From: Alphaproteobacteria bacterium
GTDB lineage: Bacteria > Pseudomonadota > Alphaproteobacteria > GCA-2731375
NCBI GenBank assembly: GCA_021776235.1
Contig: JAJFGG010000046.1
Location: 1-62,155, forward strand
Reading direction: 5' to 3'
Length of the DNA stretch: 62,155 nt
Shown: positions 1,040 through 4,666 of the stretch, piece after piece
How the letters are laid out: every line of letters begins with the position of its first letter
How positions within the stretch are numbered: position 1 is the stretch's first letter
Notes under the pieces: generated by a model
The model's database searches: none
What the model was told of the DNA's origin: nothing
The model's input: the letters and a program-made list of their open reading frames with translations, nothing else
Translations under genes and position numbers: made by a program

Positions 1040-1687
1040 TTAGCCCAAAGCCTTGAGATCGGCGATGGTTTTGCCCGGTTCGGGCCGCTGGGTGTAGTCA
1101 ACGTCGATATCGGTGGCGCGGACCACACCGCCCGGATCGACCACGATCCTGGCCGGCACCGGCAAGGTCCAGCTGTCATCACCGTTATACCTGGGCAGAT
1201 CGATGCCAAAGCCGTCGTAGACCACCTGCAGATCCGGCGGCACCTGGAAGCGCAGCCCCAGTTGCGCGGCATAGGCGTTGCCCGGATCCATGACGAGATG
1301 ATAGTTGAGCCCGTGTTTCTTGATCATAACCCGGCTGTGTTCAGCCAACTGCGGCGTCAGAGCCAACAAAGAGGCACCCAGACTTTCAAATTCGCCGAGG
1401 GTTTTCTGCAAAGCATACAGCTCTGCATTACAGTAGGGTCACCAGGTACCGCGGAAAAAGGTCAGGACCAGCGGCCCGCGCGCCAACAGCTCGCCAGAGC
1501 GCACCTCATCCCCGTCGGCGTTCGGCAATGCGAATTCGGGCAACTGCTGGCCCACCTTGACGACCTTGTCCAGGATGCCGGAGGCGCCCAAGGCCGTCGT
1601 CGCGGCAGCCATGACCGCGCGTTTCTCTTCCGGTATCCGGTTTGCGGCGCCGGCGCGGATTTTATCGAGTTGTTCAGCCAAAGACAT
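1040..1687 (-). CDS. Peroxiredoxin-like (AhpC/TSA) selenoprotein candidate, in-frame TGA as Sec83
   Basis: Two open segments, 1687-1442 and 1438-1040, are in the same frame and separated only by TGA at 1439-1441. Joined, they make 215 residues, the usual length of the PRX_like2 (peroxiredoxin-like) family. The TGA replaces the first cysteine of the conserved GTWCPYC motif, giving FFRGTW-U-PYCNAEL with Cys86 retained, a UxxC redox pair. The sequence stays family-like on both sides, to DLKALG at the end. A stem-loop fitting the bacterial SECIS pattern follows (1406-1433). The ATG at 1687 has AGGAG upstream. The gene lies 26 bases after the alpha-hydroxy-acid oxidase gene. The predicted role is thiol- or selenol-dependent peroxide reduction. 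The alternative is a TGC-to-TGA mutation or sequencing error. Confidence 0.8.
1406..1433 (-). promoter_or_regulatory. Candidate bacterial SECIS element
   Basis: On the minus strand, five nucleotides after the UGA at 1441-1439, the RNA can fold as CUGUAA paired with UUGCAG (six pairs, one G-U), a U-U mismatch, then GCA paired with UGC. This closes an eight-base loop GAGCUGUA. The loop opens with G and begins 15 nucleotides after the UGA, close to the spacing and loop-G features known for bacterial SECIS elements bound by SelB. The stem lies within coding sequence, as bacterial SECIS elements do. I folded it by eye and have no energy value. Confidence 0.65.
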
Positions 1688-1713
1688 TCGAATCTCCTAT
1701 GCAAAAAGTGGTA

Positions 1714-2871
1714 TTAGTTGACTTGGCGCAGATACTGGGGCCCCAAATTGCTCACCTTGGCGCAACCCAGCAGCATCAGGTCGCGGCGGATTTCGGCTTT
1801 CAGAATTTCCATGGCCCGTTCCACCCCGGCCCGGCCGCCGGCACCCAGGCCGTAAAGGTAAGGCCGGCCCGCCATGCAGGCCGTAGCGCCAAGCGAGAGC
1901 GCCTTTAAGACATCCGTGCCCCGGCGTATGCCGCCATCCAGGATTACCTGGGCCCGGCCGTCGACCGCGGCGACGATTTCGGGCAACACATCGATGGGCG
2001 CCGGGGCATGATCCAACTGCCGGCCGCCGTGGTTGGAGACGATGATGGCGTCGAACCCCATCTCGGCGGCGCGGCTGGCGTCCTCGGCCCGCAACACGCC
2101 CTTGATCGCCAATGGTCCGCCCCATTGTTCCTTCATTTGCGCCGCGTCATCCCAGCTGACCGACTTGTCCAACTGCTCTTCCGTATAGCGGGCGAGATCG
2201 GCGCTGGAGGTGTTCCCTTCCACCCGGTTCAACAGATTGGCCAGGGTCGGGGTAGGATTGCGGACGGCGTGGTACAGCCAGGCTGGCTTGCGCAACATGT
2301 CCAGGACCATCGGCAGGGTCGGCTTCAGGGGCATGGCCAGGCCGTTGCGCACATCGCGCTCCCGGTTGCCCGTGACCGGCACGTCGACGGTCAGACAGAG
2401 CGCGCTGAAGCCGCTGAGCTTGCACCGCTCGATAAAATCCCGAACGATCGCGCGGTCCTTCCAGACGTAAATTTGAAACCATTTCGGCCCGCTGGACAGG
2501 TTGCCCACGCCCTCGATGGAGGTGGAGGCGGCAGAGGAAAGGGTATAGGGAATATCATGCAGACCGGCGGCGGGAACCAGGCTTTCTTCGCCCGTGTGAT
2601 GGAATAATTTCGGCAGTCCGGTCGGCGAAACGATCAACGGCGCGGCGATCTTGCGGCCCATTACCACCGTGCTGATATCGATCTCGGAGACGTCCACGAA
2701 GTTGTGCGGCACCAGCTGATATTGTTCAAAACCGGTGCTGCTGCGCCGCAGAGTCACTTCGTCCTCGGCCCCGCCGTCGATGAAATCGAACAACAGTTTT
2801 GGCACCTTGCGCGCGGCCAGGCTGCGCAACTCGTCAATGTTGTGGCATTGCGCGGCCGTCCTGGCGGTCAT
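1714..2871 (-). CDS. FMN-dependent alpha-hydroxy-acid oxidase/dehydrogenase (LldD-like)
   Basis: A complete 385-residue TIM-barrel flavoenzyme of the lactate dehydrogenase/glycolate oxidase family, which oxidises 2-hydroxy acids to 2-oxo acids. Visible landmarks are QIYVWKDR (about 133-140), Lys257 in AIKGVL, the catalytic His281 and Arg284 in SNHGGRQLDH, and the FMN phosphate motifs LDGGIRRGTD (311-320) and AGRPYLYG (334-341). The substrate-carboxylate Tyr found near the N-terminus of many members seems to be Phe30 here (FDFIDGG), so the substrate is uncertain. It is followed after 26 bases by the peroxiredoxin gene. If it uses O2 it would release H2O2, but the electron acceptor cannot be read from sequence. 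Confidence 0.85.
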   Translation of the reverse strand: MTARTAAQCHNIDELRSLAARKVPKLLFDFIDGGAEDEVTLRRSSTGFEQYQLVPHNFVDVSEIDISTVVMGRKIAAPLIVSPTGLPKLFHHTGEESLVPAAGLHDIPYTLSSAASTSIEGVGNLSSGPKWFQIYVWKDRAIVRDFIERCKLSGFSALCLTVDVPVTGNRERDVRNGLAMPLKPTLPMVLDMLRKPAWLYHAVRNPTPTLANLLNRVEGNTSSADLARYTEEQLDKSVSWDDAAQMKEQWGGPLAIKGVLRAEDASRAAEMGFDAIIVSNHGGRQLDHAPAPIDVLPEIVAAVDGRAQVILDGGIRRGTDVLKALSLGATACMAGRPYLYGLGAGGRAGVERAMEILKAEIRRDLMLLGCAKVSNLGPQYLRQVN

Positions 2872-3157: not shown

Positions 3158-4666
3158 ATGCCCGTTCTGGCCATGTTTTTGGCCGCCATGCTCTGGTCGT
3201 CCTCGATTATCGGCAGCAAATTGGCGGTCCTGGAATTGGCGGTCACGGAAGTGGTCGCCGGGCGTTTTCTGTTCGCCGCAGCCATGATGTGGGCGGTGGT
3301 TCTGGTGACCCGTCAACCGGTACTACTGGGCCAGGCGCGGCGGCCTCTGCTCATGGGCATGCTGGATCCAGGCCTGGTGTCCTTGTTCCTGGTCTGGGGG
3401 CTGCACCATACTTCAGCCGTCAACGTGGCGGTGTTTTGGGCCTTGATGCCCGTGGTCATGCCCCTGGCGGGGCGCCTGGTCCTGCGTGAAGCGGTCAATC
3501 CGGTAGTTGTTGTCGGCGCTTTGCTGGCCTTTGCCGGCGCCGTTGTGTTGATGGCGGCGAACCGGGCCTCGGGAGAAGGTAATCTGTTCGGTGACATGGT
3601 CGCGATCGGCGGCGTGCTGTGCGCCGTGGCCAGTTCCCTGGTGGCCCGCCGGGTCGCCCAACAACAGGGCCGTCCCATGGTCACAACGGCCTGGCAAATG
3701 AGCATGGCGCTGGTGGTCGGATCCCTGGCTCTGGTCCTGCTGCAACAACCCGCGGCGAGCCTGGAGCATCTGAGCCGCGGGCCCGTGGGCTTGTTGGCGT
3801 ATCTGGGAATGATCGCCACCGCGGGGCCGTTTTTCTTGCTGAACTATGCCTTGCGGCGTATGCCGGTTGGCCACGCCAGCCTGTATTCCAGTCTGGTCGG
3901 GCCATTGTCCGTACCTCTGGCCGTACTGGTCCTGGGCGAAACCATGCAGGCGTTGGAGATTGCCGCCATCGCCATTGTCATGCTGGGCGTTTTCCTGCCA
4001 AGCCTGGCCGGACGGGTTGATATCTCCCGCTTCCAGCGCCAGCCCCGGATCATAGACGACCCGGCCCTGTCGGCCTTGACCTATGTGGTTTTCGACACCG
4101 AAACCACGGGTCTGCATCCCTCGGATGGCGACCGCATCGTACAGATCGCCGGCGTGCGCATCGTCGGGGGGATCATTCGGCGGGACCAGATTTTTGAGGA
4201 ACTGGTGCATCCGGGCCGGTCGATTCCCGCGCGCTCAACCAAGTTTCACGGCATCATCGACGAACAGGTCGCGGACAAGCGGTCCATTGGCCCGGTCTTG
4301 CAGGATTTCCATGCCTTCTGCGGTGACAGTATTCTGGTGGCCCACAACGCGGCCTTTGATATGCGCTTTCTGGAACTGGCCCAGCCCGACGGCGCCCCGG
4401 CTTTCGGTCAACCGGTTCTTGACACCCTGCTGTTATCCGCCGTGCTGGAACCCAAGGCCAAGGGCCATGACCTGGATGCCCTCGTAGATCGCCACGGCGT
4501 GGTTCTGCCCAGTGCGGACCGCCATACCGCCCTGGGTGACAGCCTGGCCACGGCGGAAGTCTTCCTGGCCCTGCTGGGCCTGGCCAAGGATGCTGAAACC
4601 CTGGGCCAGCTTATCAACCTGTCTTACAAGGCGCGCCGTTTCCGCCGCCTGCAAAAACGCTATTAG
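3158..4666 (+). CDS. EamA/DMT-family transporter fused to DnaQ-like 3'-5' exonuclease
   Basis: A single 502-residue frame with two recognisable halves. Residues 1-285 form about ten hydrophobic helices arranged as two EamA repeats (drug/metabolite transporter superfamily). After a short linker (about 288-305), residues 308-475 are a DEDDh exonuclease: Asp313 and Glu315 in VFDTETTG, Asp401 in HNAAFDMRF, and His456 and Asp461 in RHTALGD. All catalytic residues are present. The exonuclease would face the cytoplasm if the C-terminus is inside. The upstream ribosome site is weak. Convergent with the CBS/DUF294 gene 13 bases away. DnaQ-type exonucleases occur beside DUF294 proteins in other proteobacteria, but I know of no standard EamA fusion. 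Confidence 0.85.
   Translation: MPVLAMFLAAMLWSSSIIGSKLAVLELAVTEVVAGRFLFAAAMMWAVVLVTRQPVLLGQARRPLLMGMLDPGLVSLFLVWGLHHTSAVNVAVFWALMPVVMPLAGRLVLREAVNPVVVVGALLAFAGAVVLMAANRASGEGNLFGDMVAIGGVLCAVASSLVARRVAQQQGRPMVTTAWQMSMALVVGSLALVLLQQPAASLEHLSRGPVGLLAYLGMIATAGPFFLLNYALRRMPVGHASLYSSLVGPLSVPLAVLVLGETMQALEIAAIAIVMLGVFLPSLAGRVDISRFQRQPRIIDDPALSALTYVVFDTETTGLHPSDGDRIVQIAGVRIVGGIIRRDQIFEELVHPGRSIPARSTKFHGIIDEQVADKRSIGPVLQDFHAFCGDSILVAHNAAFDMRFLELAQPDGAPAFGQPVLDTLLLSAVLEPKAKGHDLDALVDRHGVVLPSADRHTALGDSLATAEVFLALLGLAKDAETLGQLINLSYKARRFRRLQKRY

Follow-up and report, generated by a model that had tools for sequence, protein, structure and literature searches.

The window, i.e., the whole 62,155-nucleotide stretch of DNA that we analysed, carries on the minus strand a gene for a peroxiredoxin (Prx)-like protein, very probably a selenoprotein, at positions 1040..1687. 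The gene has 215 codons, starts with ATG at 1687 and ends with TAA (codon 216, 1042-1040). Its sole internal stop is the TGA at codon 83 (1439..1441), which we read as selenocysteine (Sec). This codon occupies the first position of the U-P-Y-C motif (RGTW-U-PYC), so the predicted redox pair consists of Sec83 and Cys86 (1430..1432). The remaining two frames of the minus strand contain 3 and 10 stops over the same interval. A 26-base intergenic gap (1688..1713, minus strand) precedes the ATG, and the AGGAG a few bases 5' of the start codon is the likely ribosome-binding site. The AhpC-TSA domain (PF00578) was matched by residues 45-191 with 85.2 bits (cut-off 26). Because this match runs across TGA83, both halves of the frame are expected to form one protein. 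In the list of open reading frames, the gene is split at the TGA into separate pieces at 1439..1687 and 1040..1411. The sequence-only reading had described a 215-codon frame with one TGA at the first Cys of CPYC, family-like sequence on both sides of the TGA and a gene that standard annotation would split; the translation and coordinates, the domain match and the two listed pieces bear out these three points. No signal sequence was seen by eye at the N-terminus, which suggests that the protein is cytoplasmic.

The upstream neighbour (1714..2871, minus strand) belongs to the FMN-dependent dehydrogenase family (PF01070, 445.7 bits) and is possibly co-transcribed with the selenoprotein gene. Of the 44 loci compared, only that of the closest relative shares this neighbour (L020 and L069, which are one locus); therefore, we claim no functional link, and the dehydrogenase is outside the selenoprotein system. 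On the 3' side of the selenoprotein gene, a 277-bp element (771-1047) was noted, with 40-nt inverted terminal arms that are 88% complementary and with inner inverted repeats. A copy with 89% identity (L006:907-1174) is found close to a tRNA-Cys gene, and the element looks like an interspersed repeat of the source genome. A further frame of the window (3158-4666) codes for a single protein of 502 amino acids that combines EamA transporter domains with an RNase_T/DnaQ-type exonuclease domain.

The codon-83 column was then compared among homologues. A contig scan yielded 49 public loci matching the gene, of which 37 (L020-L056) were read; the other 12 (L057-L068), all weak matches, were left out. 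TGA was found at the codon-83 column in 17 of the 37 loci and Cys in 18, and the column was uncovered in two (L052 and L053). L055 and L056 were read for this column and left out of later counts. Every homologue read at the column had TGA or Cys. Seven residues are invariant in the 35 aligned homologues (R79, G80, W82, U/C83, P84, C86 and N87), and the part of the protein beyond TGA83 is conserved as well. In the order of the source genome, the gene is present in 9 of 15 genomes (E ≤ 1e-20), and the best copy in each of the nine carriers contains one TGA, at the codon-83 column. The tenth match in the order (L077) is a second copy in one carrier, 35% identical, with Cys at the column.

The search was extended to 385 sampled genomes of the class. 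The family profile was matched in 48 of them (E ≤ 1e-45), with 55 matches in all: 18 with one TGA, 2 with one TAG, and 35 without a stop. The held-out set comprised all 14 new sequences among the 18 TGA matches and six high-scoring ones of the 35 stop-free matches; one of the six (L139) had already been seen and was dropped, which left five new Cys homologues. All 14 previously unseen TGA homologues had W-U-PYC with TGA at the codon-83 column. The proposed alignment of homologues thus returned Sec or Cys at exactly this position, and the claim that the TGA is placed there beyond chance is upheld by the public loci, the nine carriers of the order and the 14 held-out sequences. A use of UAG for Sec in the two TAG-containing matches, L123 (G325) and L124 (G048), was considered and rejected. 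Both are Cys-type sequences with TAGs at Tyr and Trp columns away from the active site, and these lone TAGs are a nonsense change or a sequencing error. Two genomes of the sample carry two Sec copies of the gene, namely G309 (L129 and L130) and G207 (L126 and L138); those of G309 (G309:C11:4727-6281) are arranged in tandem with about 270 bases between them.

The fold of the protein was modelled from the 35 aligned sequences with a mean pLDDT of 96.3. The model shows two helices (residues 3-17 and 20-35), followed by the Prx domain from about residue 42. Peroxiredoxins lead among the structural matches, and the best of them is AhpE (5id2; Z 21.7, rmsd 1.4 over 151 residues). Sequence-profile searches gave Bcp-type peroxiredoxins as the best matches, and ResA and others were matched as well. 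In the alignment with Bcp-type chains, Cys86 falls on the peroxidatic Cys and Sec83 on the Ser/Thr of the motif; in that with ResA, Sec83 falls on the first Cys of CxxC. The earlier description of a Prx-like protein with a UxxC pair is therefore right as to the Sec83/Cys86 pair and the Prx fold, but the residue aligned with the peroxidatic Cys is Cys86 rather than Sec83. The TxxC/TxxU motif of a classic peroxiredoxin is absent, with Sec or Cys at the Ser/Thr position in 35/35 homologues. Pro178 is kept in 33/35 homologues. It aligns with a Pro of ResA 4nmu, which we take to be the cis-Pro of thioredoxins, within a C-terminal segment of 2.1 bits that is non-significant alone. It also aligns with an Arg of 2ywn and 3hjp, presumably the catalytic Arg of peroxiredoxins, within C-terminal segments of 8.6 and 9.8 bits that are likewise non-significant alone. 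Two residues past Pro178, Arg180 is kept in 30/35 homologues.

Two kinds of chemistry can be considered for such a protein. The selenoprotein may act as a genuine peroxidase, in which Cys86 or Sec83 would attack H2O2 or organic hydroperoxides and the partner residue would resolve. The Bcp and AhpE structures as the best structural matches, the Bcp-type profile matches that place Cys86 on the peroxidatic Cys, and Arg180, which might act as the active-site Arg, all speak for a peroxidase, but Sec or Cys stands where a Prx motif has Ser/Thr, the residue weakly aligned to the Prx Arg is Pro in most homologues, and ResA, of thioredoxin type, is also matched. We regard a peroxidase as a serious candidate, if one with less than an even chance. 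The UxxC pair is of the thioredoxin type; because of this, and because it is Cys86 that aligns with the peroxidatic Cys, the term "peroxiredoxin-like" suits the fold more than it does the probable chemistry. On balance, we favour a thiol:disulfide oxidoreductase as the likelier prediction, with confidence that is modest and that we lowered slightly because the Pro/Arg alignment is weak and Arg180 lies near. The selenoprotein perhaps has a role in oxidative-stress defence.

An RNA hairpin of the SECIS type was found just 3' of the TGA, at 1407..1427 on the minus strand. It has an 8-bp stem, UGCAGAGC/GCUUUGCA, capped by the apical loop UGUAU, in which G occupies the second position. In the arrangement UGCAGAGC-UGUAU-GCUUUGCA, the first base of the stem is the 12th after TGA83, and that of the loop is the 20th. 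All pairs of the stem are formed in the window gene (8/8, -11.7 kcal/mol), whereas of 500 synonymous shuffles of its sequence 0.8% reached eight pairs. The single-sequence fold of the window gene, computed for 71 bases starting at codon 80, is unremarkable (z -0.3). The 23 distinct Sec homologues together formed 162 of 184 stem pairs, as compared with a mean of 112 and a maximum of 126 in 500 synonymous shuffles. The 17 Cys homologues were at the level of chance, with 76 of 136 pairs (shuffle mean 73, maximum 86). This count excludes three duplicates (L069, L070 and L073) as well as L019, the second selenoprotein. The core, made up of the four loop-proximal pairs, was intact in 23/23 Sec and 2/17 Cys homologues, and G at loop position 2 was found in 23/23 and 8/17, respectively. 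As a control, the stem was slid by 1-4 bases either way in the Sec homologues, which gave at most 92/184 pairs.

The stem had been defined before the 14 held-out TGA homologues were fetched. These showed 88 of 112 stem pairs (shuffle maximum 73), with the core fully paired in 11/14 and lacking a single pair in the remaining three, and with the loop G in 14/14. The five new Cys homologues had 21 of 40 pairs (shuffle mean 20.5), an intact core in 0/5 and the loop G in 3/5. Some single Sec homologues do not exceed their own shuffles in pairs, e.g., L047 with 5/8, and the homologues in these statistics are non-independent, many of the Sec ones being close kin. Across the Sec homologues the SECIS core is near-identical (GAGC, a loop with G second, GCU). 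As the core is nearly invariant, there is little covariation, and what the hairpin evidence points to is codon choice held constant in the Sec forms.

The source assembly (G000; 6.36 Mb, 174 contigs, 98.4% complete) was searched for the Sec machinery. It contains SelA (583 bits), SelB (414 bits across the frame; its gene adjoins selA) and two SelD proteins, one of which (382 bits) is a Sec form with an in-frame TGA. SelA, SelB and both SelD proteins were judged against the NCBIfam cut-offs, and all were over them. In the Sec form of SelD (L013:1444-2529, G000:C46), the TGA is at the Sec position of GLAHGGGUGSKIAP. Since this SelD is itself a selenoprotein, standard annotation may truncate it. 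The second SelD (L014:262-2538, G000:C25) lies in a 758-aa frame and is a Cys form (MRCGGCGAK). By eye, the N-terminal part of this frame resembles an NADH-dehydrogenase-like domain, as in Ndh-SelD fusions, which the part of PMC2398784 consulted describes as a class. The same genome also contains a second gene for a Prx-like UxxC selenoprotein (L019:1411-1959, G000:C153, ~93.7-94.3 kb). Its product includes FYRGHW-U-PYCRRQ and matches PF00578 with 66 bits, and a GCCGGC-AGUUG-GCCGGC hairpin is located 3' of its TGA. In the order, SelA was found in 14 of 15 genomes, including all nine carriers of the gene.

Within the order, ARAGORN identified tRNA-Sec with the anticodon TCA in 13 of 15 genomes, among them all eight other carriers. 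It was not found in the source assembly or in G012, an 83%-complete relative in which the best match was a tRNA-Ser. The source genome thus has at least three predicted selenoprotein genes along with selA, selB and selD, yet its tRNA-Sec was not found. Within the window, ARAGORN and Rfam at the gathering threshold gave no tRNA and no RNA family. RF01852 had nine matches in the source genome (150 of 914 candidates scored), with no tRNA-Sec among the eight that were fetched; according to ARAGORN, four of these eight loci are tRNA-Ser and the others tRNA-Tyr (next to a tRNA-Gly), tRNA-Cys, tRNA-Phe and tRNA-Asp, and the ninth, weakest match (30.8 bits) was left out of this check. Around selA and selB of the source genome, neither ARAGORN nor inspection by eye revealed a tRNA-Sec; in other Alphaproteobacteria, the gene is nested in selB according to the portion of PMC8124441 consulted. 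An exact pattern of the tRNA-Sec anticodon and T arms had 0 matches in the source genome. With selC of a relative and its flanks as a DNA query, none of the matches listed covered selC (40 of 93 candidates scored), and selC alone gave a best E of 0.99. Seven source-genome stretches contained no tRNA and no Rfam match; six of them are close to flank matches, and the seventh is the site of the weak selC match. The missing tRNA-Sec is likely an assembly gap. Of the Sec machinery that the sequence-only reading had named as a check, selA, selB and selD were thus recovered, while tRNA-Sec was not.

The failure to find tRNA-Sec in the assembly could also be taken to mean that a Cys codon has turned into TGA by mutation or sequencing error and that the gene is now split. 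A single base change is enough for this, and lone TAGs do occur in two Cys homologues of the class; both TAGs, however, are at other columns, whereas the same TGA recurs in the best copy of all nine carriers in the order and in MAGs of several phyla, the half of the protein beyond it is conserved, and the hairpin 3' of it is confined to the Sec forms. We consider a pseudogene or an error highly improbable, and the gene looks working rather than broken. No more probable is a selenium-free decoding of the TGA, in which an altered genetic code or a suppressor tRNA would insert Trp or Cys, since another decoder, though formally possible as tRNA-Sec was not found, has nothing specific in its favour, and the presence of selA, selB and selD, the TGA at the Sec position of SelD itself, the restriction of the column to TGA or Cys in every homologue read and a hairpin that fits SelB-dependent decoding argue against it.

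Taken together, the data indicate that TGA83 very probably inserts Sec at the active site of a Prx-fold redox enzyme. We infer that the decoding of UGA83 takes place and that the tRNA-Sec itself exists. In the proposed mechanism, SelB and Sec-tRNA-Sec would decode UGA83 as Sec, with insertion directed by the hairpin just 3' of it, within the coding sequence. The selenolate of Sec83 would then attack a substrate disulfide (or oxidised sulfur), Cys86 would resolve the intermediate, leaving a selenenylsulfide between Sec83 and Cys86, and the reduced enzyme would be regenerated by thioredoxin or a reductant like it.

According to record titles, Sec forms of the gene occur in Alphaproteobacteria and in MAGs of Deltaproteobacteria, Desulfobacterales and Syntrophobacteraceae; Rokuibacteriota, Phycisphaerales, KSB1 and Acidobacteria are represented by one MAG each. 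A tree of 56 homologues (36 Sec and 20 Cys rows) was computed with identical rows entered once and with L038, L054, L077 and L019 left out. It contains at least five changes between Sec and Cys, two of which are forced by well-supported branches. From this tree, it appears that Sec and Cys were exchanged at least twice in the history of the gene. A frame that standard gene calling splits is now recovered as one predicted selenoenzyme gene with strong comparative evidence, and a predicted selenium-dependent redox protein is added to a little-known alphaproteobacterial order. The codon-level SECIS signature can be used to find further such genes. The gene leaves our knowledge of Sec decoding itself unchanged, and it raises a question of mechanism, i.e., whether a Prx fold serves here as a peroxidase or as a disulfide reductase.

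Compared with known proteins, the predicted selenoprotein shares its fold with AhpE (5id2) and with the Bcp/PrxQ-type peroxiredoxins 2ywn and 2cx3, which are also profile matches. It differs from them in having Sec in place of the motif Ser/Thr, extra N-terminal helices, and Pro where it is weakly aligned with their Arg. With ResA (4nmu and 3c71), it has in common the WCxxC motif, the first Cys of which is aligned to Sec83. ResA, which ranks under the peroxiredoxins in Foldseek, is membrane-anchored and extracytoplasmic, unlike the window protein, in which no signal sequence was seen. The scores for the PrxU Sec-peroxiredoxin model NF040737 (19.6 bits, cut-off 270) and for the SelL-related redox protein model NF040769 (33.3 bits, cut-off 120) were below the cut-offs. 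Eukaryotic SelU/SELENOU was considered as presumed candidate kin. Proteins of this sort are usually assigned the domain model cd02970. A full-text search with the WUPYC and WUPFC motif strings returned no related paper, as judged by title.

The window subfamily has a helical pair (residues 3-35) ahead of its Prx domain and the signature RGxW(U/C)P(Y/F)CN, features that may set it apart. It could represent a distinct subfamily, in which a Prx fold is combined with thioredoxin-type Sec-x-x-Cys chemistry, Pro in place of Arg and an added N-terminal helical pair; this we propose only tentatively, as the less probable case. In a narrow check of the portions of PMC9312934 and PMC13188914 consulted, such a subfamily had no name of its own. 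In the published descriptions consulted, Sec-peroxiredoxins have TxxU, in contrast to the UxxC of the window protein. The peroxiredoxin-like family cd02970, listed in the consulted part of PMC13188914 as a UxxS selenoprotein family, is similar in being peroxiredoxin-like with Sec at the first motif position, but differs from the window protein in its last motif residue (UxxS vs. UxxC).

Prx-like UxxC selenoproteins are a kind already known in bacteria; the sequence-only reading had named such a precedent for Sec-containing peroxiredoxin-like proteins in general. The consulted text of PMC1088965 places a Prx-like family of 22 sequences, with UXXC in place of TXXU, among the families known by 2005, and that of PMC1794560 reports a Prx-like UxxC selenoprotein in several Deltaproteobacteria. 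In the part of PMC2398784 consulted, Prx-like 1 (pfam00578, UxxC) comprises 225 sequences, and the corresponding parts of PMC9312934 and PMC13188914 list a "Prx-like thiol:disulfide oxidoreductase" (PF00578, UxxC). The likeness of the window protein to this family, of which WP_010940744.1 is the published representative, is one of description. As far as these descriptions go, it resembles the published Prx-like UxxC selenoproteins in its AhpC-TSA domain, in Sec as the first residue of UxxC, in the existence of Cys homologues and in the hairpin that follows the UGA.
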